Shown: positions 1,017 to 27,704, counted from the stretch's first letter. The stretch: DNA of 32,916 nucleotides from Pseudohongiella sp. (GCA_013204155.1 JABMOK010000198.1:1-32916), one strand, 5' to 3'. Notes: a model not told the origin generated them from the sequence alone. Numbers and translations: made by a program.

Positions 1017-2114
1017 GTGCCGAATCCTTTACTGTTATTCAGTGCTCAAATTATTGCGATTCTATCGGTTCTGTTGTTGGCTGCCGGGTATTTAAAAACC
1101 GATGCGCGGGCGGCCAGTGCCAGAGTATTTGCCATTATGGTCGTGTTCATCGTTTTTTATCTGCTCAATGGCATGAGCGGGCAGCATATTGACCCTCAGT
1201 TTCGGCTAGACATTAGTCGTTGGCAATTGCTCAGCCAGTTTGGTATGAACAGCATATCTGGCTTATTCATGATTTATTGCTTCCTGATATTTCAGGAGCA
1301 ACAAAAATTTCCAGTTACACTCGCAGCGGCCTTTGCTGTGCAGGTAATTCTGGACTCCGTATTATCAGCTCTAACTCTCTTTGCCCCAGAGGCAGCAAAC
1401 TCATCTGTTGCAGTATTCATGAGCACTAGTATGGATGTGCTGATGCTGGTGTTCGTAGCTTCGGCAATCTACTGGACGGTAAAAGGTTGGCGAGCAGACC
1501 TGGTAGATGATCGCAGGGTTTTGCGCTGGTTTATAATCGGTGTGCAGGGTGCCTTGATTTTTACTGTGGTGTTTGTGGAGAATTTCCTGCTAGAAGTTGG
1601 CTCCAGTGTTTACGCGCTGGAACAAGCAGTACTTGTTTCTGCTATTGCGTTTCTCGCGTTGGGAATGTTGCTCGTTGCCATGCGGTTTGATTATGTTTCA
1701 TTAAGCAATGTTATTCGTAAAGTGGTGGAATTGGGTGAAGAGCCGGAAGCAGGAAATGCCACAGCTTTCAATATTGATAGTTTCAATAAAGCGTTTCGAG
1801 ATGGACAGCTATATCGGGAAGCCGGTTTAACTATTTCGATGTTGGCGAAAAAGTTGAAGCTTCCTGAGTATCGATTGAGAGCCTTTATTCACCAGCAGCT
1901 CGGATTCCGAAATTTCAATGCCATGTTGCATGAGTATCGCATCGAAGATGCGAGCACTGCACTTGCCAGCAATGACAAACCCAATCTTCCTGTTCTCACG
2001 ATTGCCCTGTCAGTTGGTTACCAGTCGATCACCCCATTTAACAATGCCTTTCGAGAACTGAAGGGCGTTACCCCATCCGAGTTCCGTAAACGATCGGCTC
2101 AAATCCTGAAGTGA
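1017..2114 (+). CDS. Membrane-anchored AraC-family transcriptional regulator
   Basis: A 365-residue protein with a GTG start, chosen because AGGAA lies six bases upstream. Residues about 3-230 hold roughly seven hydrophobic segments (for example LFSAQIIAILSVLLLAAGYL and IYCFLIF), so the N-terminal half is a polytopic membrane domain. Residues about 265-365 are an AraC-type double helix-turn-helix: first helix pair around LTISMLAKKLKLPEYRLRAF, second around IALSVGYQSITPFNNAFREL, ending in the family's hallmark GVTPSEFRKR. Membrane-embedded AraC regulators with 7TM-like sensor domains are a known architecture; they are thought to sense an envelope signal and bind DNA from the membrane. The gene lies directly upstream of the two A-B-C cassettes on the same strand, so it is the obvious candidate regulator for them. 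This is inference from position. Confidence 0.88.
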   Translation: MPNPLLLFSAQIIAILSVLLLAAGYLKTDARAASARVFAIMVVFIVFYLLNGMSGQHIDPQFRLDISRWQLLSQFGMNSISGLFMIYCFLIFQEQQKFPVTLAAAFAVQVILDSVLSALTLFAPEAANSSVAVFMSTSMDVLMLVFVASAIYWTVKGWRADLVDDRRVLRWFIIGVQGALIFTVVFVENFLLEVGSSVYALEQAVLVSAIAFLALGMLLVAMRFDYVSLSNVIRKVVELGEEPEAGNATAFNIDSFNKAFRDGQLYREAGLTISMLAKKLKLPEYRLRAFIHQQLGFRNFNAMLHEYRIEDASTALASNDKPNLPVLTIALSVGYQSITPFNNAFRELKGVTPSEFRKRSAQILK

Positions 2115-2241: not shown

Positions 2242-2814
2242 GTGATCAACGAGATGTTATTACAATTTGCTCACTGGATGGAGGCTCAACCCTATAGCCA
2301 GATGCTGGTGGCTGGCTATTTTAGTTACAACTGGGTGGAAGCGACGCATGTGTTAACTTTAATGTTGAGTATAGGATCTCTATTTGTAATCGATCTTCGC
2401 ATGATCGGTCTGATTCTGACCGAAGTGCCTGCGTCCAAATTAGCGGAACGCTTGCACAAGCCGATGATGATCGGTTTTGTCATTATGTTTATAACCGGGG
2501 CGCTGCTGGTCTATGCCAAACCGGTAGAAACCATCCAGAGTTTGTGGTTTAGAATCAAGATGATCTTGTTGGTGCTGGCTTTTATAAATGCCTGGGTTTT
2601 TAATGCACGAATGAAAGCAGCGGATGGCACTTGGGATATGGACCCCGTAGCCCCTAAAGCGCTTCGTACCGGAGCGATTATATCGCTTCTTCTTTGGTGT
2701 GGCGTTGTCACACTTGGACGGTATATCCCTTATGACTGGGTTGATTGCGTAAATACTGATAACCCCACGATCTTATGGGCGGCCGGTTGCGTTGATCAGC
2801 TGAATGCCCTGTAG
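2242..2814 (+). CDS. Cassette 1 gene A: multi-helix membrane protein (DUF6644-like)
   Basis: A 190-residue integral membrane protein. The GTG start is supported by GGAGG nine bases upstream. After an amphipathic N-terminal helix there are four hydrophobic segments at about 31-58, 73-92, 101-121 and 144-162. Visible motifs are YNWVEATHVL (His36), IDLRM, LHKP (His72, exactly 36 residues after His36), LWFRIKMILL, GRYIPYDW, and a C-terminal pair of cysteines (Cys169, Cys183). It aligns along its full length with gene A2 at 4129 and more distantly with the B proteins. It resembles what I recall of the uncharacterised DUF6644 family; I could not check this. Two histidines on adjacent helices could bind haem or a metal, as in cytochrome b561-type proteins, but nothing proves it. 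It is the first gene of the duplicated cassettes, behind the AraC-type regulator. Confidence 0.82.
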   Translation: MINEMLLQFAHWMEAQPYSQMLVAGYFSYNWVEATHVLTLMLSIGSLFVIDLRMIGLILTEVPASKLAERLHKPMMIGFVIMFITGALLVYAKPVETIQSLWFRIKMILLVLAFINAWVFNARMKAADGTWDMDPVAPKALRTGAIISLLLWCGVVTLGRYIPYDWVDCVNTDNPTILWAAGCVDQLNAL

Positions 2815-2816
2815 TT

Positions 2817-2894
2817 AATAGTCAAAAGAAGTAATAGTCAAAAGAAGTAATAGTCAAAAGAAGTAATAGTCAAAAGTAATAGTCAAAAGTAATA
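2817..2894. repeat. Tandem array, 16-bp and 13-bp versions of one unit, after gene A1
   Basis: Three copies of AATAGTCAAAAGAAGT, then two shortened copies AATAGTCAAAAGT and a final AATA. The short form lacks one internal GAA. The array starts two bases after the A1 stop codon and fills much of the 186-base gap before B1. It contains no evident hairpin. Confidence 0.9.
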
Positions 2895-3000
2895 AGCAAG
2901 AGAAAGGTTGAAGAGCAGAAGCAATAGTTAAGAATTTAATTAGTTGGATCAGCGCAGCTGACCAATCGTTAGTTGTTATGTGACAAGCAGGGAGTTACAG

Positions 3001-3588
3001 ATGCTCAATTTATTGTTGAGTCAATACCGAAAAACGACAATCCTATTTCTGGTGTTGATTTTAATTGCGATCCTGGAAGCCTTTGAAGTCAGGACTTCTA
3101 TTCACGGGAACACACTGCCCTATTTCGAGTGGCTTAAGAATTCTTCATGGTTAGGAATTATTGGCACGACCTATGGATCTGTCTATGCAACCGTAGAAGC
3201 CGTACATCTTATCTCTATGGCTATTATCGGTGGCACCGTGCTCGTTGCCGATCTTAGGTTGCTTGGGATTATCCTTACCGATATACCTTCGGAAACAATA
3301 ACCAGAGGCACGCATAAGGTCTTTCGGAATGCCTTGATTTTTGCCGTTGCCAGCGGAATATTTTGCGCGGCAGGTGTAGCCGACAAAGTTTATTATATGC
3401 CCGTTTTCTGGATAAAAATGCTCGCACTGATAGCGGGCTCATGCTTTGTATTTTTAGTAAAGCAACCGTTACTGAATACGGTTCCTCATGATGAGATTAG
3501 GCCCTGGACTCTGCGTCTGCTCGCGGTTTGTTCTCTTCTGGTTTGGTTCACAGTGGCGGCAACGGGTCGCTGGATTGGTTTTAGTTAG
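3001..3588 (+). CDS. Cassette 1 gene B: membrane protein paralogous to A (DUF6644-like)
   Basis: The open frame begins with a GTG at 2980, but the ATG at 3001 has a near-perfect AGGGAG six bases upstream, so I start there (195 residues). One N-terminal hydrophobic helix (about 13-26) is followed by a soluble turn and four more helices. Motifs shared with gene B2 are VEAVHL (His69), VLVADLRLLG, DIP, THKVF (His105, 36 residues after His69), PVFWIKMLAL, and the C-terminal VAATGRWIGF. The E-A-x-H, D-L-R, K-M and G-R-aromatic-I positions are also found in the A proteins, so A and B probably share an ancestor. This suggests a heteromeric membrane complex. Substrate and function are unknown. Gene C1 follows 35 bases after the stop. 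Confidence 0.82.
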   Translation: MLNLLLSQYRKTTILFLVLILIAILEAFEVRTSIHGNTLPYFEWLKNSSWLGIIGTTYGSVYATVEAVHLISMAIIGGTVLVADLRLLGIILTDIPSETITRGTHKVFRNALIFAVASGIFCAAGVADKVYYMPVFWIKMLALIAGSCFVFLVKQPLLNTVPHDEIRPWTLRLLAVCSLLVWFTVAATGRWIGFS

Positions 3589-3623
3589 GCTGAACCGAGA
3601 TTTAGTGCTGATTGGAGAAGTGT

Positions 3624-3794
3624 ATGAATAACGAGAAAAAATGGAGCGATCAGGAAATAGCCGCTATCGGTTCCAGTGTTGTGATAGTAGGCTCATTAGT
3701 TCTTTACTGGGTGCTTCAATTTGAATCTACTATAGAGTTACTAGAGCTGGCCTATGGCTCAGTTAATCTATTCAATAATCCTCTGGTCTTCTAG
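3624..3794 (+). CDS. Cassette 1 gene C: single-helix small membrane protein
   Basis: A 56-residue protein. An in-frame TTG at 3612 exists, but the ATG at 3624 with GGAG six bases upstream is better. A charged N-terminus (NNEKKWSDQE) leads into one membrane helix at about residues 14-36 (IGSSVVIVGSLVLYWVLQF), then an amphipathic tail (ESTIELLELAYG) and 11 extra residues. The helix end and tail match gene C2 at 5492 closely: both have YW, Q two to three residues on, S, LL and a final AYG. Its size and place at the end of a gene set for two larger membrane subunits recall accessory subunits such as CydX or CcoQ, although there is no sequence similarity I can recognise. Confidence 0.75.
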   Translation: MNNEKKWSDQEIAAIGSSVVIVGSLVLYWVLQFESTIELLELAYGSVNLFNNPLVF

Positions 3795-4128
3795 CCAGGA
3801 ACTCCTGACTAGGTCCAGCAGTGTATTTTGTCTGTTTCCGGCCTTAGGTTGAGGCCCGGACAGTGCCTCCACCTGCCTCCACCTGCCTCCAGGGATCCTG
3901 CTATTTCTCTTATTGCACGCTCCTGGCGGTGATCTGAATACTTGAAGTAGTGTGCCTATATTTGATCGATCTCAATATATTTCTTCCTATAGTCTTTATA
4001 TTTCATCCCCAGTGCCTGCTGCCTCGCCTTATCCGATAGGGATTGATTGCAGTTATCAAGAGCATTACCGCCAAGCGGTTTGAAAGAGGCTACTTTAGAG
4101 TTTAGATCAGCGGAGGTCGAAATAAGAG
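3795..4128. other. Gap between cassettes 1 and 2
   Basis: About 334 bases with no convincing gene; a minus-strand open frame reaching into A2 is a shadow. It contains an imperfect hairpin at about 3829-3863 (CTGTTTCCGGCC against GGCCCGGACAG), which lacks a T-run, directly followed by a 10-bp array (3864-3890). A promoter for cassette 2 may lie here but I see no clear -35/-10 pair. GGAGG at 4112-4116 and AAGAG at 4123-4127 precede the A2 start. Confidence 0.55.
3864..3890. repeat. Short tandem array, 10-bp unit (TGCCTCCACC)
   Basis: Two full units plus a third TGCCTCC, GC-rich unlike the AT-rich arrays elsewhere. It sits immediately after the imperfect hairpin in the gap between the two cassettes. 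Confidence 0.8.
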
Positions 4129-4701
4129 ATGAATCAATTCGTTTACGATATTGCCGTGTGGCTGGACAATACTGCATGGAGCACATTGCTGCATGAGTCT
4201 TACTACATGTACAACTGGGTTGAATCTATCCATGTCCTGAGCCTGATCATCTGTCTGGGGATGTTATTCCTGATCGATTTACGGATGTTGGGGTATGCGC
4301 TGCCAAACGTTCCCGCCAGCAGTATTGCCAACCGCTTGAATTTGCCGATGTTGCTTGGATTCTCAATCATGGTGTTCACCGGACTGCTGTTATTTTATGC
4401 GGTGCCGGTCAGGAGCACGCAAAGTGTGTGGTTTCGAGCCAAGATGATTTTGTTGCTGGGCTGTGCAATTAATGCCTTTCTGTTTCATAAGCGCATGAAT
4501 GAATCAGTCTCCAGTTGGGATAATGACGCCAGAGCGCCCGGTCGCATTCGACTGGGTGCTGCCTTATCACTTGGGTTCTGGTCCTTGGTGGTAATTTGCG
4601 GTCGTTTCATTGCCTACGACTGGTTCGATTGCGAATACACCGATGTGGGCAGTCTTTCACAGATGCTCTCCGGTTGTATTGACGGACAGACCCGCTATTA
4701 A
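4129..4701 (+). CDS. Cassette 2 gene A: multi-helix membrane protein (DUF6644-like)
   Basis: 190 residues, the same length as gene A1 and alignable end to end. Shared blocks include YNWVES-x-HVL (His35), LFLIDLRMLG, NVPASS, PMLLGF, the QSVWFRAKMILL helix, RLGAALSL, GRFIAYDWFDC and a late GC. The two C-terminal cysteines (168 and 183) are kept, at nearly the same spacing, and could form a disulfide outside the membrane. The striking difference is that the second histidine (His72 in A1) is replaced by Asn71, exactly 36 residues after His35. If the pair binds a cofactor in A1, A2 has lost one ligand. Four hydrophobic helices follow an amphipathic N-terminus. Function unknown. Confidence 0.82.
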   Translation: MNQFVYDIAVWLDNTAWSTLLHESYYMYNWVESIHVLSLIICLGMLFLIDLRMLGYALPNVPASSIANRLNLPMLLGFSIMVFTGLLLFYAVPVRSTQSVWFRAKMILLLGCAINAFLFHKRMNESVSSWDNDARAPGRIRLGAALSLGFWSLVVICGRFIAYDWFDCEYTDVGSLSQMLSGCIDGQTRY

Positions 4702-4747
4702 CTACTCGTATTAACTACTCGTATTAACTACGCGTATTAAGTACGCT
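4697..4747. repeat. Tandem array of a 13-bp unit overlapping the A2 stop codon
   Basis: Two identical copies of ATTAACTACTCGT, one with a T to G change, then a 12-bp degenerate copy. The first copy contains the TAA stop of gene A2 (4699-4701). It sits between A and B, as does the array after A1, but the two units are unrelated in sequence. Confidence 0.9.
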
Positions 4748-4819
4748 ATTAATTAAAAGGTAAGTGAACAGGATTGGGCATCAGCTAAGCATGCTCAGGC
4801 ACTAAATCAGGAGTCATTT

Positions 4820-5416
4820 ATGTCTACAACCTCCGCTACAACATCGGGCTCATATACCAAGACCATAACGGTAGTTACGCTGGTATTGCTCATACTCGCC
4901 TTTTCGTTTTCAAGTTTGCGACGGGATACCTGGCTGCAACTGTACGAATTTTTCCTTTGGATGGAAACCACCCCATTTGGCGTGATAGGGAAGACTTGGG
5001 GGGCGGTGTTCGCCATTGTCGAGGCGTTTCATTTATTGGCGATGGCTCTGTTAGGCGGAGCTGTTGTGGTTGCTGATGCGCGTTTAATGGGTTGGATTTT
5101 TGCAGATATTCCTGCCAGAGAGATATTAGACAAGACCCACAAAGTGTTTGTGGCAGGGCTTATCGTAGTGCTTGCAACCGGCATATTCATGGCCTGTGGC
5201 GTAGCGGGAAAGATTTATTGGTTGCCAGTTTTTTGGTACAAGATGTTGGCCTTGGCGACCGGAATATTCTTCGTTTTCTTCATCCGGCGGCCTCTGTTGA
5301 GAAGGGATCTGAATGAGATTAGACCAATCGTGGTAAAGCTGGTGGCGATTTCTTCCATGTTGGTGTGGGTTACCGTCGCGGCTACGGGACGTTGGATAGG
5401 TTTCGCAGGAAGTTAG
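4820..5416 (+). CDS. Cassette 2 gene B: membrane protein paralogous to A (DUF6644-like)
   Basis: 198 residues; the ATG has AGGAG six bases upstream. Like gene B1 it has an N-terminal hydrophobic helix (about 15-32), then FFLWMETTPFGVIGKTWG and four helices. It keeps VEAFHL (His71), VVVADARLMG (DLR changed to DAR), DIPAR, THKVF (His107, again 36 residues later), PVFWYKMLAL, and ends VAATGRWIGFAGS. The exact conservation of the His-36-His spacing and the last block against B1 argues for a shared structural or cofactor role. A 75-base gap with its own SD separates it from C2. Function unknown; a haem or metal-binding membrane subunit is the leading hypothesis. Confidence 0.82.
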   Translation: MSTTSATTSGSYTKTITVVTLVLLILAFSFSSLRRDTWLQLYEFFLWMETTPFGVIGKTWGAVFAIVEAFHLLAMALLGGAVVVADARLMGWIFADIPAREILDKTHKVFVAGLIVVLATGIFMACGVAGKIYWLPVFWYKMLALATGIFFVFFIRRPLLRRDLNEIRPIVVKLVAISSMLVWVTVAATGRWIGFAGS

Positions 5417-5491
5417 CGATTTTCAGAGAGGGTTAGACTACTTCGAGTCGTACACAGGATACTTATTGGTGAGAACGGGCAGGAGAATAGA

Positions 5492-5641
5492 ATGAGCGAA
5501 GAAGATAAAAATGCAGCAAAAATGGATGATGTACAAACGGCCGCGGTGGCTATCTCGACGACCATCATCGTGTTCTTTGTAATCTACTGGGCCATCCAGA
5601 TCGATAGTGTCAGGGATCTGCTAAATATGGCCTATGGTTAG
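5492..5641 (+). CDS. Cassette 2 gene C: single-helix small membrane protein
   Basis: A 49-residue gene that common length cutoffs would miss. The ATG follows AGGAG with a six-base spacer, a strong ribosome site. A charged, acidic start (SEEDKNAAKMDD) precedes one hydrophobic helix at about residues 18-36 (AVAISTTIIVFFVIYWAIQI) and a short amphipathic end DSVRDLLNMAYG. The C-terminal part matches C1: IYWAIQIDSVRDLLNMAYG against LYWVLQFESTIELLELAYG. Conservation of sequence, length class, topology and gene position in two cassettes makes it very likely a real protein, and the smallest subunit of the A-B-C unit. It is followed after 40 bases by an intrinsic terminator. Confidence 0.82.
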   Translation: MSEEDKNAAKMDDVQTAAVAISTTIIVFFVIYWAIQIDSVRDLLNMAYG

Positions 5642-5928: not shown

Positions 5929-7311
5929 ATGCGTCAACTGCAGATTGTTTTTTCCTCATTCTGTCTTCTCTTGTCAGGCAGTGGCGCCTTTGCGCAGGCG
6001 AATTCCAGGGCTGACGCCCTGAATGAGCTGGAGTTATCCCGCAAACTCCTCATTGGACTTGAAGAAACAATGGGACCCATGAACCAGCGTCTTGTCGAAT
6101 CCCTCGAGCAAGTAGCGGACAACTTAATGGCGCTCAACGAATTTGATGATGCGCATTCGATGCTGGACCGGGCCTTGCAAATTACCCGCATTAATCAAGG
6201 TCTCTACACCCAGGACCAGTTGCCGTTTCTAAATAAGAAGATAGAAAATCATGCCAATCAGGGGGATTGGGATAAAGCTCGCCAACAAATGGAGCATTTG
6301 CTGTGGCTATACCAGACCAAGCAGTTGGATTTTAACGAGAATTTGATAAGCCGGTTGCTACAACTTTCAAATTTTCATCTGCGAGCCATCACCGAAGATG
6401 CAGAGGCTTGGCAGGCTTATCATTTTCGTCATGTCACCGAAATTAAATGGATGACACTGGGGCTGGCTGAGCGGGTTTGGGGTAAGTCCGACCCAAGAAT
6501 GGTTCCAGTCCTGTACAGCCAGGTTACTCAACTCCACCGGCTACTGGTTGCCATCGAGCGCGGGGGCAGTACCGGCTATGGCTTGAGAGAGATACGGCTC
6601 GGCTCAGGTATAGTCACGGAGCGAAAAGCCGTGCGGCGTGGTCTCTATTTCACCGGCATGACGCTGCTAAATACAATGCAGCGAGTCTATCAAAGTGCTG
6701 ACGCGCCGAATCGGGAAGGCCTGGCGATGAGTCAGCTTTACCTTGCCGACTGGCAGCTTCTCTTCAATCGCCCTGAGGAGGCACTCACAGGCTACCGTTT
6801 GGCGTATCGAGGCCTGATTGAGGCTGAGATTGAACCTGGCCTGATCAACCATCTATTCAGCCAGCCATTGGTTCTGCCTGCGCCCAAATTTTTCTCAAGC
6901 GTCCAGCAGGCGCTTCAAGCGCGGGAAGGTAATCGTGTGCCAGATGAGGTTGCAGGAGCGCCGGGTGCAGTGACTTATTTATTCTTCAAGGAGTGGTCGA
7001 GCGCATTTTCCAATGTTCGAAATCCGCTTCCTGCTATTGAAATGGATGAGGAATCGAACTTTGCTCTTTTTTCCTTCCGTCTTGCTGGCTTGGACGAGGT
7101 TTCCCGCTGGATTAGTGGGCGCTATACCCGTGGTGTGGGTGTGGTAAATGAAGCTGAGCTGCTTGAGCAAACTAACGTTCCGTCTTATCCGGAGAAAAAC
7201 CTGCTGGAGAGACTCAATATGCTTCGGTTTCGCCCGAAACTGATCGAGGGTGAACCCCAGGAGGTAAACGGCTTGTTGCAGTACCACCTCGCGGCAGACA
7301 CCTTCTTCTAG
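5929..7311 (+). CDS. Exported TPR-repeat protein with TonB-like C-terminus
   Basis: 460 residues; the ATG has AGG eight bases upstream. Residues 1-22 form a signal peptide (LLLSGSGAFA, cleavage before QANS). The first third is helical with TPR-like pairs, for example the segment around LMALNEFDDAHSMLDRALQI and a following GDWDKARQQMEHLLWLY; another TPR-like stretch is near LADWQLLFNRPEEALTGYRL. The last 35 residues (ERLNMLRFRPKLIEGEPQEV and on to LLQYHLA) resemble the C-terminal domain of TonB, where arginine-phenylalanine-arginine-proline and a G-x-P turn precede a strand. It lacks the TonB membrane anchor and Pro-rich region. It is probably periplasmic or outer-membrane associated; partners unknown. 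The TAG stop falls within a MITE-like element, so the original C-terminus may have been a few residues different. Confidence 0.75.
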   Translation: MRQLQIVFSSFCLLLSGSGAFAQANSRADALNELELSRKLLIGLEETMGPMNQRLVESLEQVADNLMALNEFDDAHSMLDRALQITRINQGLYTQDQLPFLNKKIENHANQGDWDKARQQMEHLLWLYQTKQLDFNENLISRLLQLSNFHLRAITEDAEAWQAYHFRHVTEIKWMTLGLAERVWGKSDPRMVPVLYSQVTQLHRLLVAIERGGSTGYGLREIRLGSGIVTERKAVRRGLYFTGMTLLNTMQRVYQSADAPNREGLAMSQLYLADWQLLFNRPEEALTGYRLAYRGLIEAEIEPGLINHLFSQPLVLPAPKFFSSVQQALQAREGNRVPDEVAGAPGAVTYLFFKEWSSAFSNVRNPLPAIEMDEESNFALFSFRLAGLDEVSRWISGRYTRGVGVVNEAELLEQTNVPSYPEKNLLERLNMLRFRPKLIEGEPQEVNGLLQYHLAADTFF

Positions 7312-7454: not shown

Positions 7455-7571
7455 AGTTTCCCATCCGCCAAGCTTCTTATATGATATTTCATAGCCTTTG
7501 CCACGATTGGTTAGATTCTGGCAGCGTCATTTAGTATGATTCGCCTCTCGTGTAATTTGTGGAAGCAAAAA

Positions 7572-7814
7572 ATGAACAATCTACTCAGTCAGGGTTTTGA
7601 ATTAGCCCTATTTGGGATGGGAACCGTGTTCGTATTCCTCGCTGTATTAATAATTGCTACCAAAGCGATGTCTTCGCTAGTGCTGCGATTTGAGCCCGCG
7701 GTGAGCGTTGCTTCTGCGGCTACGGTGGCACAGGATGCTGCACTGTCTGATCGTGGCCATCTGCTGGCAGTAATTAGCGCCGCGATCGCACAGCATAGAA
7801 CGACTAAAAAATAG
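7572..7814 (+). CDS. oadG: Oxaloacetate decarboxylase gamma chain
   Basis: 80 residues from the ATG at 7572, which has GGAAG six bases upstream; an upstream in-frame ATG at 7536 has no ribosome site. One membrane helix (FELALFGMGTVFVFLAVLII) is followed by a short polar tail, typical of OadG. In the family this subunit anchors the alpha chain to the membrane beta chain and helps assemble the Na+ pump. It lies directly ahead of oadA and oadB. Its last codons and stop lie in a 16-bp duplication, so the C-terminal residues RTTKK are repeat-encoded. Confidence 0.88.
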   Translation: MNNLLSQGFELALFGMGTVFVFLAVLIIATKAMSSLVLRFEPAVSVASAATVAQDAALSDRGHLLAVISAAIAQHRTTKK

Positions 7815-7826
7815 AACGACTAAAAA
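7795..7826. repeat. 16-bp direct repeat overlapping the oadG stop codon
   Basis: Two adjacent copies of ATAGAACGACTAAAAA, followed by a decayed GAAACGACAAAA. The TAG that ends oadG is in the second copy (7812-7814). The same TAG in the first copy is out of frame because 16 is not a multiple of three. Confidence 0.85.
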
Positions 7827-7903
7827 ACAAATGAAACGACAAAACGCAGTCCACAATCTGCCTTTCCCAATTCCTGAAATATTGACAGTGATGAGTTTGT
7901 AAT

Positions 7904-9685
7904 ATGAGTGAAAATAAGCAACCCCTTGGAATTACTGATGTCGTCTTGCGCGATGCCCATCAGTCCCTGCTCGCAACCCGAATGCGGATAGATGATCTGT
8001 TGCCAATAGCGGCAAAACTGGATCAGGTTGGGTTTTGGTCTTTGGAGTCCTGGGGTGGAGCAACCTTCGATGCCTGCATTCGTTTTGTGGGAGAAGATCC
8101 CTGGGAACGAATCCGTCTCTTTAAAGAGGCGATGCCAAATACCCCTCAGCAAATGCTATTCAGAGGTCAGAATATTCTGGGCTATCGTCATTACGCCGAT
8201 GATCTGGTGGAAAAATTCGTAGAGCGTGCGGCCGTGAACGGCGTCGATGTGTTTAGAGTATTCGACGCCATGAATGATATGCGCAATTTGGAAACCGCTA
8301 TCAAGGCGGTAGGGAAGCAGGGCAAACATGCTCAGGGTACGATGTCCTATACCCTTAGTCCGGTCTATAACCTTGAGAGCTGGTTGAATATGGCCAGACA
8401 AATCGAAAGCATGGGTGCCGACTCACTCTGTATCAAGGATATGGCAGGCTTACTTAAGCCTTATGTCGCCTATGAATTAATTACTCAGTTGAAGCAGGCT
8501 GTTAAAATCCCTATTCATATGCAGTGTCATGCGACGACCGGTCTGTCTACGGCTACCTATCTGAAAGCGGTAGAGGCGGGCATTGATAATGTTGATACGG
8601 CGATTTCATCCATGAGTATGACTTATGGACACTCGCCGACAGAATCCTTGGTTTCTATGTTAGATGCGACAGAGCGCAGCACGGGACTGGATATTGTCTT
8701 ACTGGAAGAAATTGCCAGTTACTTTCGTGAAGTCAGGAAAAAATACGCGAAATTTGAAGGATCTTTAAGAGGGATAGATTCCCGAATTCTGGTAGCACAG
8801 GTGCCCGGTGGCATGCTGACGAATCTGGAGAATCAACTGCGTGAGCAAAACGCCGCGGATAAGATGGATGCCGTACTGGAGGAAATTCCCAAAGTACGTG
8901 AAGATTTGGGGTTTATTCCACTGGTAACACCGACATCTCAGATCGTCGGCACTCAAGCGGTATTGAATGTGCTGGCTGGGGAACGTTATAAAACAATTAC
9001 CAAGGAAACGGCGGGCGTGTTAAAGGGTGAATACGGTGCTACCCCTTCACCGGTAAACAGCGAGCTACAGGCCAAGGTGCTTGACGGCGCAGAAGCTATT
9101 ACCTGCAGGCCGGCAGATTTGCTCACGCCAGAATTTGAAAAGCAGAAGAGCGAACTGTTAGCTATCGCCAAGGCAGAGGGAATTACACTGCTTAACGAAG
9201 TCGATGACACCCTGACCTATGCCCTGTTTCCACAGGCGGGGCTGAAGTTTCTAAAAAACCGCAACAATCCAGACGCGTTCGAGCCCGCACCATCGATTGC
9301 GGAAACGGCGGCGGTGGCGCCAGGGACATCCGCTGCTACCGGTGTCTATACCGTTGAGCTGGAAGGCAGGGCCTATGTAGTAAAAGTGACTGAAGGCGGG
9401 GATGTTGCGCAATTCGCAGAGACAACTGCTTCTACAGCTTCTGCAAAGCCTGTTGCTGCGCCAACGGGTGCCGGCAAAGCGATTCCGGCGCCGCTAGCCG
9501 GCAATGTGTTTAAGGTAGTAGTGGGAGTTGGGGACCGCGTTGCCGAAGGCGATGTGATTCTGATTATGGAAGCCATGAAAATGGAGACGGAGATTCGTTC
9601 ACCTGCCTCAGGCACCGTTACCGGGGTGAGTGTTAAGGCTGGCGATGCGGTAAAGGTCGGCGAAACTATGTTGTCACTAGGCTAG
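7904..9685 (+). CDS. oadA: Oxaloacetate decarboxylase alpha chain, biotin-dependent carboxyltransferase
   Basis: 593 residues, the usual OadA length. The N-terminal carboxyltransferase TIM barrel opens with [18 protein letters not shown] and contains [20 protein letters not shown] and the metal-site [10 protein letters not shown] conserved PYC/OadA-type domain follows (about 300-460), then an Ala/Thr-rich linker and a C-terminal biotinyl domain with EAMKMET, the biotin being carried on Lys559. The enzyme transfers the carboxyl group of oxaloacetate to biotin, giving pyruvate; the beta chain then releases CO2 and exports Na+. It acts at the inner face of the cytoplasmic membrane with OadG and OadB. 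The order G-A-B is the classical operon. An alternative would be another biotin carboxyltransferase, but the flanking subunits settle it. Confidence 0.96.
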
Positions 9686-9718
9686 TTGGCATTGAATCAG
9701 AAGAAAAGAGATAGATAA

Positions 9719-10852
9719 ATGAGCCGACTGCTAGAGCTGTGGCAATCCACAGGCATAGTTCAAATAACCCTTCCGCAATTGTTAATGATTCTGATTGGAT
9801 TGTTGCTGCTTTATCTTGCTATCAAGAAAGGTTTTGAACCCTTGTTGCTGATACCTATCGGTTTCGGTGGCATTCTTTCGAACATTCCCGGTGTCGATAT
9901 AGCCGTGGGAGATGGAATCCTTCATCAGTTTTATGTGATGGGATTGGAAACCGGGGTCTTTCCTCTGTTGATCTTTATGGGCGTGGGTGCAATGACTGAC
10001 TTTGGTCCACTGCTGGCCAATCCAAAGACATTGCTGCTTGGCGCGGCGGCGCAGTTCGGTATTTTTTCGACGCTGCTTGGGGCTCTGTTCCTAACCGATA
10101 TCGGATGGTTCAATTTCACTCTTCAGCAAGCTTCGGCGATCGGCATTATCGGTGGCGCAGATGGTCCTACAGCAATTTATGTGGCGGGCATTCTTGCGCC
10201 TGAAATGCTTGGCGCAATCGCCGTTGCCGCGTATTCCTATATGGCGCTGGTACCCTTGATTCAGCCTCCCATCATGCGAGCACTAACCAGCGAAGACGAA
10301 CGCAAGATAACTATGACTCAGTTACGAGCGGTATCGCAGACGGAGAAAATTGTATTCCCACTGCTATTACTTATCCTGGTCGCGTTAGTAGTTCCCAGTG
10401 CGACTCCGCTATTGGGTATGTTTTGCTTTGGTAATTTAATGAAAGAATGCGGGGTAGTTTCCCGGCTATCCGATACGGCACAGAATGCCTTGATTAATAT
10501 CGTTACCATCCTGCTCGGCTTATCTGTTGGATCCAAGTTAGGCGCCGACCAATTTTTGGTGGCTAGTACTTTGGGTATTTTGTTGCTGGGGATGTTGGCA
10601 TTCTCGATTGGCACGGCATCGGGTGTGTTGATGGCGAAGCTGATGAATGTATTCTCAAGTAATAAGATTAATCCCCTGATCGGATCGGCGGGTGTCTCGG
10701 CGGTACCCATGGCAGCTCGGGTTTCTAACAAGGTAGGACTGGAAGCGGACCCCCACAATTTTCTGCTGATGCATGCAATGGGGCCAAATGTGGCCGGTGT
10801 GATCGGTTCTGCTGTAGCGGCGGGTGTACTGCTGCAGTTTGCAGGAGGCTAA
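9719..10852 (+). CDS. oadB: Sodium-pumping oxaloacetate decarboxylase beta chain
   Basis: 377 residues, multi-spanning membrane protein with about nine or more helices. Family features are the [20 protein letters not shown] start region, [20 protein letters not shown], the [17 protein letters not shown] segment (with the Na+/proton-coupling Asp), and [20 protein letters not shown] near the end. It decarboxylates carboxybiotin on OadA and uses the energy to move Na+ out. It starts 33 bases after oadA, with AAGAAAAGAG ahead of the ATG, so the three genes are co-transcribed. Methylmalonyl-CoA decarboxylase beta chains are similar, but the oadG-oadA context supports oxaloacetate. Confidence 0.95.
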
Positions 10853-20472: not shown

Positions 20473-20510
20473 TGCAGCGCTCCTGCTTGGTCAGAGGGTT
20501 CTTATAGCTG

Positions 20511-20600
20511 AACTGTCTTTAGGTCTGAACTGTCTTTAGATATTAACTGTCTTTAGATATTAACTGTCTTTAGATATTAACTACCTTTAGATATTAACTA
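20511..20600. repeat. Tandem array of a 17-bp unit overlapping the feoB stop
   Basis: Five units of AACTGTCTTTAGATATT: three perfect, the outer two (20511 and 20579) diverged, then AACTA. The feoB stop (TAA on the minus strand, 20587-20589) and its last codons lie in the outermost copy. The array fills most of the gap between feoB and the glycosyltransferase. Confidence 0.92.
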
Positions 20601-27289: not shown

Positions 27290-27704
27290 TTTCCTGCTTG
27301 TTTTGTTTACCGCCCATGCTATTCGCCGGGAGCAATACCCGGTTTAAATTAGCAGTGGGGTCGATGATGCTAGCACAATTTGACTGGTTCCACGAAGGTC
27401 TAATGTGGCGCTGAGCAGCCATCCCTATCACTAACTGGCATGGAGGTGCCGATTTATCGAAGTTTCTGTCCCATGGCTGGCGCGGTAATGAGGCGATGGG
27501 GTTTTCAGCGAAACCGCTGAGTGCGATGGATTAGACGTAATCACCGGCACAGGGACTACAGACAGGGACTACAGACAGGAACTACAGACAGGAACTACAG
27601 ATTGACGGATTATTGATGTTAAAGCCTGCAAGAGGCCGATAAAGTCTTTATAATCCCCTCAGTTTTTACCGATGAACCTGTTTTTCAAAACCATGGATTT
27701 AATT
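27290..27704. other. Divergent ppk-ompA intergenic region
   Basis: About 415 bases with no gene. It holds a 6-bp-stem hairpin (TCAGCG-AAAC-CGCTGA, 27505-27520), the 13-bp array at 27549-27600, and a good -10 hexamer TATAAT at 27649-27654 without a matching -35 at normal spacing. That -10 is only 18 bases from the ATG at 27672, which argues for the later start at 27705. Confidence 0.6.
27549..27600. repeat. Tandem array of a 13-bp unit (ACAGGGACTACAG), 4 copies
   Basis: Four adjacent units, two as ACAGGGACTACAG and two as ACAGGAACTACAG. The block lies about 50 bases upstream of a -10 hexamer for the porin gene, where a change in copy number could alter promoter spacing to an upstream activator site. 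Confidence 0.92.

Follow-up and report, generated by a model that had tools for sequence, protein, structure and literature searches.

A stretch of 32,916 nucleotides from Pseudohongiella sp. (GCA_013204155.1, JABMOK010000198.1:1-32916), here called the window, carries two tandem copies of a three-gene cassette, A-B-C, which is a true conserved unit. A and B are homologous membrane proteins of the Pfam family DUF6644 (PF20349), a family of unknown function, and C is a very small single-helix protein. When modelled together, A and B look like the N-terminal and C-terminal bundles, respectively, of one CydA, the core subunit of the bacterial respiratory enzyme cytochrome bd, that is, a CydA in two pieces. 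We propose, with even confidence, that the trio is a small inner-membrane heterodimer of the split CydA type held by a clamp, which would bind heme b and/or quinone and carry electrons between the periplasm and the quinone pool.

The A-B-C unit

The six open reading frames (ORFs) lie on the plus strand, each with a purine-rich stretch resembling a ribosome-binding site immediately 5′ of its start. A1 (positions 2242 to 2814, GTG start) and A2 (4129 to 4701) encode 190 amino acids each, B1 (3001 to 3588) and B2 (4820 to 5416) 195 and 198, and C1 (3624 to 3794) and C2 (5492 to 5641) 56 and 49, the last two products ending in ...ELLELAYGSVNLFNNPLVF and ...DLLNMAYG. Order, strand and lengths are those reported in an earlier note made from the sequence alone, and the end-to-end likeness of the two copies described there is borne out, with 48% identity between A1 and A2 (185 amino acids, E 2e-62), 48% between B1 and B2 (187 amino acids, E 9e-61) and 40% between C1 and C2 (43 amino acids, E 7e-12). 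The resemblance of A to B that the note had also pointed out is one of homology, since A1 and B1 are 27% identical over 159 amino acids (E 2e-18). All four proteins score above the curated DUF6644 cut-off of 27 bits: A1 50.5 (E 3e-13), A2 36.6 (E 7e-9), B1 196.9 (E 3e-58) and B2 169.5 bits (E 8e-50). The note recognized no described system with this set of genes; A and B do fall in a named family, although no paper mentioning DUF6644 turned up in the literature searched, and none found describes the division into A and B, the pairing, the fusion or the C partner. C1 and C2 match no Pfam family at E up to 1, and a scan of NCBIfam gave a single match to an OadG-related small subunit, below its cut-off (E 0.08). 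No defence families of PADLOC were found.

A scan with the B alignment across 84,980 species yielded 79 loci. A, B and C are consecutive on one strand in 78 of them, and in the 79th the contig ends 25 bases past B. C is present in every trio locus whose contig reaches its position, as detected with a hidden Markov model that C2 also matches, and homologues of A and B stand nearly always side by side; the possibilities weighed in the earlier note, that A and B are usually solitary and far apart or that C is restricted to this locus, do not describe what was found. If both copies are counted where a locus has two, the complete sets number 84, a recurrence that takes the trio far beyond chance. 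In these sets A and the profile start of B are separated by a median of 45 bases, and B and C by one of 36; the organisms carrying them include Pseudohongiella, Halioglobus, strain LSUCC0112 and bacterium 005FR1. The divergences of the three proteins are correlated (Mantel r 0.73-0.81, the largest of 500 permutations being 0.09), and the pooled ratios of non-synonymous to synonymous changes (pN/pS), taken from close pairs only, are 0.14/0.73 for A, 0.14/0.72 for B and 0.23/0.73 for C, indicating strong purifying selection on all three; an earlier dN/dS set that mixed in saturated pairs gave a median of 0.50. C retains the signature D..A..(Y)W..S.xELLxLAYG, also written D..A..(Y)W..S..(E)LL..AYG.

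Outside the trio, DUF6644 genes occur as adjacent pairs in 23 of 23 loci examined in the genus (fused ones included) and in 9 of 12 from distant families; no C-like ORF below E 0.04 lies near them. In six genomes the paralogue pair is a single ORF of 344-385 amino acids containing two full domains (L061:6773-7807, L063:6913-7959, L064:6641-7687, L065:6118-7155, L066:6453-7490 and L069:6426-7583). Adjacency together with these fusions argues for a 1:1 partnership of A and B, two proteins working as one. At three further loci (L062, L067 and L071) the members of the pair that is fused elsewhere are separated by roughly 0.5 kb.

Two lineages and their distribution

In the tree of B sequences, B1 belongs to a clade of 22 rows (100/99) and B2 to a different clade of 42 rows (100/97), close to copies that stand alone elsewhere. 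Hence the tandem is formed by two ancient paralogous lineages kept together and not by a recent duplication. Tandems of the ABC-ABC type are also found at four other loci (L082, L087, L093 and L094), and a third lineage has a shorter B that lacks the additional N-terminal helix. The assembly from which the window comes (3.48 Mb, 202 contigs) contains eight matches to the DUF6644 profile and, when partners found with the A profile are added, five DUF6644 pairs on four contigs. The family was found in 36 of 36 genomes of the same genus, and the same search detected it in none of 21 genomes belonging to the order's other families; sampled more widely it is rare, being present in 2 of 274 genomes of the class and 29 of 398 of the phylum.

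Predicted fold

A1 and B1 share a reading frame, and the read-through from 2242 to 3585, with stops replaced by glycine, was predicted by AlphaFold2 as one chain with a disordered spacer of 62 residues. The model has a predicted template modelling score (pTM) of 0.76, with confidences mostly of 85-97 in the transmembrane helices. For a relative whose A, B and C are in frame (L096) the pTM is 0.78, and C is modelled as one long helix with a predicted local distance difference test value (pLDDT) of 69-80. Both models place two four-helix bundles together, and in the comparison of each with the PDB the ten best chains are all CydA or AppC of cytochrome bd, with Z scores of 20.1-22.0 for the window model and 17.4-20.1 for that of L096, both A and B being covered. 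In 7ose_A, for example, 270 residues superpose with a root-mean-square deviation of 3.6, residues 24-448 of the model lying on 7-446 of CydA. The next matches are ActC and ActF of alternative complex III (Z 13.7-18.1; 16.4-18.1 for the window model), and unrelated folds do not exceed 10.5. The comparison tool itself warns that a best Z of 14 can be uninformative for all-helical models; values of 20-22 with a uniform top ten are clearly above that level. Foldseek by itself gave weak matches (best E 0.07 and 0.19), of which a bd oxidase was the top one both times.

On these models, A1 is predicted to be the N-terminal and B1, which has one additional N-terminal helix, the C-terminal half of a CydA, and C would take a CydX-like role. 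The earlier note had thought of a CydA-CydB-CydX layout. The predicted fold supports the hunch in kind and alters the mapping, with A plus B corresponding, bundle for bundle, to one CydA instead of to CydA plus CydB.

Conserved residues and candidate heme ligands

Among 217 aligned subunits the first-helix histidine is present in 216 of 216, the arginine that follows it (D-L-R) in 216 of 217, a glycine of helix 2 and a lysine of helix 3 in 217 of 217 each, and a Gly-Arg pair of helix 4 in 216 of 216. These residues are H36, R53, K106 and G159-R160 in A1 and H69, R86, K139 and G189-R190 in B1. In B the lysine is directly followed by a methionine (M140; 85 of 85). Two cysteines after helix 4 are invariant in A (85 of 85; C169 and C183 at the A1 C-terminus, encoded at 2746-2790); they are predicted to lie on the periplasmic side and possibly form a disulfide.

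In AppC, heme b558 is ligated by His186 and Met393, b595 by Glu445 and heme d by His19 (PMC8585947). The first aligned pair joins residue 24 of the model with residue 7 of AppC, or with residue 6 of the mycobacterial CydA. This implies, if helix 1 is free of gaps, that H36 of A would fall on the heme d ligand His19, whose counterpart in M. tuberculosis we take to be His18. By analogy, H69 and M140 of B would map to His186 and Met393. No counterpart was found for Glu99 and Glu107 of CydA helix 3 or for Glu445 of helix 8, helix 3 of A and helix 4 of B having no conserved glutamate, nor for the long periplasmic Q-loop that quinol-oxidizing members have between CydA helices 6 and 7, the corresponding loop of B spanning only some 8-9 residues in the model. 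Without the glutamates and the Q-loop, an oxygen-reducing di-heme site is unlikely.

The window proteins do not match the CydA family PF01654 at E up to 1, a sequence search of the PDB gave no match at E up to 10, and an alignment to a CydA profile was not significant, a weak negative in view of the small CydA set, with at least one sequence in the wrong frame (L197). No CydA was found in the window's own genome (assembly 94.65% complete). Since the sequence, glutamate and Q-loop tests all failed, A-B-C is not filed as a bd oxidase.

Proposed role and alternatives

Taking into account (i) the partnership of A and B, (ii) the predicted joint fold and (iii) the invariant residues, we propose a split-CydA model for the trio. 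In the model, the homologous four-helix bundles A and B lie next to each other and together make up a two-bundle fold like that of CydA, the first helix of each supplying its invariant histidine, and C would act as a CydX-like clamp. Most likely, one or two b-type hemes would be held through the histidine of A and the His/Met pair of B, and/or the invariant Arg, Lys and Gly-Arg would surround a quinone site. The complex would pass electrons between a periplasmic oxidation reaction, possibly of the pyrroloquinoline quinone (PQQ) type, and the quinone pool; as it lacks the catalytic glutamates, it is unlikely to reduce oxygen in the bd manner. A different electron donor for a bd-type fold would have a precedent, since cytochrome c has been proposed to replace quinol as donor in the OR-N group of the bd superfamily (PMC10839748). 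The two old, diverged versions, placed next to a membrane sensor-regulator of the AraC type, would presumably serve two conditions or two donors. The earlier note had likewise put forward a membrane complex in two versions under a shared regulator; the unit, the two versions and an adjoining regulator are there, and we infer the assembly of the three proteins in the cell.

Several points weigh against the split-CydA model. At the sequence level A and B have no detectable similarity to CydA, and a function cannot be read from a common fold: the subunits of alternative complex III that bind quinol without heme match almost as well. AlphaFold2 may reproduce a familiar membrane fold, the read-through models force A, B and C into a single chain, and the ligand positions were derived from the ends of the alignment only. 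Moreover, c-type cytochromes are not enriched at trio loci (15 of 866 genes, as against 6 of 327 in the background), and the window itself has neither a PQQ nor a DUF6152 neighbour, NIPSNAP being found instead in its relatives.

The structural matches and the charged residues bear also on a second reading, in which A-B is a heme-free quinone-binding anchor like NrfD, ActC or ActF, providing a quinone site and a proton path, with His, Arg and Lys serving quinone chemistry. Such a site would suit the conserved charged residues, and alternative complex III subunits are the second-best matches, up to Z 18.1. CydA nevertheless fills the top ten of both lists, ahead of all chains of alternative complex III, and no soluble multiheme protein or molybdoprotein partner stands beside the window trio; we consider this reading unlikely.

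A role in porphyrin or heme handling, with A and B as diverged HemJ homologues that oxidize, carry or insert a tetrapyrrole, seems to us more doubtful still. A1 and A2 do match UPF0093 weakly (E 4e-4 and 5e-4), and the spacing from His to Arg, the helix-2 glycine and a Trp-x-x-Lys in helix 3 parallel HemJ sequences. The scores, however, fall below the cut-offs (21.0 and 20.8 against 34.2 bits for UPF0093 in Pfam; 14 against 138 bits for TIGR00701 in NCBIfam), a profile-profile alignment to HemJ is not significant, and the genome has a HemJ of its own (G000:C131:8129-8545). HemJ, having no solved structure, is outside the reach of the fold search. Least probable is a non-redox complex (a transporter or a signalling module) that reached its eight-helix arrangement by convergence, for although HupE/UreJ-type membrane proteins lie beside the trio in 25 of 46 loci of the non-AraC kind (2 of 20 background regions), the CydA match greatly exceeds those to other membrane folds in the lists concerned and the buried invariant set of His, Arg, Lys and Gly-Arg would be unusual for a transporter.

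Gene neighbourhood

The AraC-family regulator (1017 to 2114, plus strand; PF12833, E 3e-14) precedes A1. Its N-terminal half has about six to seven hydrophobic segments and its HTH_18 domain is C-terminal; an orthologue lies near the trio in 34 of the 79 loci, and we infer a regulatory link. Upstream of it, a small ORF (453 to 896) is conserved at 23 loci; in the window its N-terminus has a 12-bp coding repeat (N-T-D-K). Short tandem repeats fill much of the A-B spacer in both copies (2816-2889, 16 bp x 4.8; 4696-4752, 13 bp x 4.5), and further arrays lie at 1-53, 210-259, 509-573, 20509-20599 and 27549-27601.

Pseudohongiella-like trio loci are flanked by NIPSNAP, a tetratricopeptide repeat (TPR) protein and often oadGAB. 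The TPR protein (5929 to 7311, plus strand), kept downstream in 27 of the 79 loci, is probably not part of the complex. The genes oadG-oadA-oadB for a sodium-pump oxaloacetate decarboxylase (7536 to 10852) come after the trio in the window and in some ten relatives, which is probably no more than shared synteny. Of 79 relatives, 39 have a secreted NIPSNAP protein (PF07978) encoded convergently to the trio (e.g. L082:8689-9117); none was found beside the window trio.

At the other 46 trio loci the neighbours include, besides HupE (25), PQQ dehydrogenases (8), DUF6152 (10), a secreted family of the GVWQ type (11), a cytochrome c′-like protein (10) and NHL propellers (24). Of 13 distant DUF6644 loci, 11 have DUF6152 and 4 have PQQ dehydrogenases nearby, the corresponding numbers for 20 background regions of 20 kb from the window's genus being 0 and 2; with orthologous loci that are not independent and a background of one genus, this neighbourhood is a lead and not a statistic. 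The DUF6152 protein, secreted and with an HHSFA-like start, lies within about 6 kb of DUF6644 at those 11 loci (among L251-L262), an adjacency that links two families of unknown function; no paper mentioning DUF6152 turned up either. At loci of DUF6644 paralogues c-type cytochromes account for 13 of 311 genes, against 6 of 327; these loci are not independent and the figure is not used as support.

Comparison with known systems

The trio looks like an undescribed redox or quinone membrane complex. With CydA (AppC) the modelled A-B pair would share two side-by-side four-helix bundles of like order and inferred topology, a first-helix histidine per bundle, a methionine after the lysine of B's third helix and a tiny single-helix partner. 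It differs from CydA in being encoded by two genes, in its sequence, and in having no ninth C-terminal helix besides no Q-loop and no catalytic glutamates. C resembles CydX, AppX and CydS as a single-helix protein encoded with the bundle subunits in all complete loci, and differs from them in matching no family and in having a conserved motif of its own. ActC and ActF, of the NrfD family, have the same two-bundle membrane fold (Z 14-18) with a lower structural score than CydA, and inspection of the ORFs revealed no genes for a multiheme cytochrome ActA or an iron-sulfur molybdoprotein ActB in the window. HemJ is alike in helix length and in its H...R...G...K spacing, and differs in the points given above.

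CydA and CydB each consist of two four-helix bundles. They are thought to be products of duplication, and CydX is regarded as clamping the bundles (PMC6853902); the literature found describes no intermediate in which each gene encodes a single bundle. Tentatively, and with some doubt, DUF6644 pairs could be a living half-CydA stage, in which separate homologous heme-b bundles with a one-helix clamp, sometimes fused, form the core of the bd and alternative complex III fold as a non-oxidase, quinone-linked carrier for periplasmic oxidations. If the trio is a heme- or quinone-binding split CydA with a CydX-like clamp, it would be a new bioenergetic complex of Pseudohongiella-like and Halioglobus-like marine bacteria, would provide DUF6644 with a function and would offer a testable model for the origin of the two-bundle fold that cytochrome bd and alternative complex III have in common.

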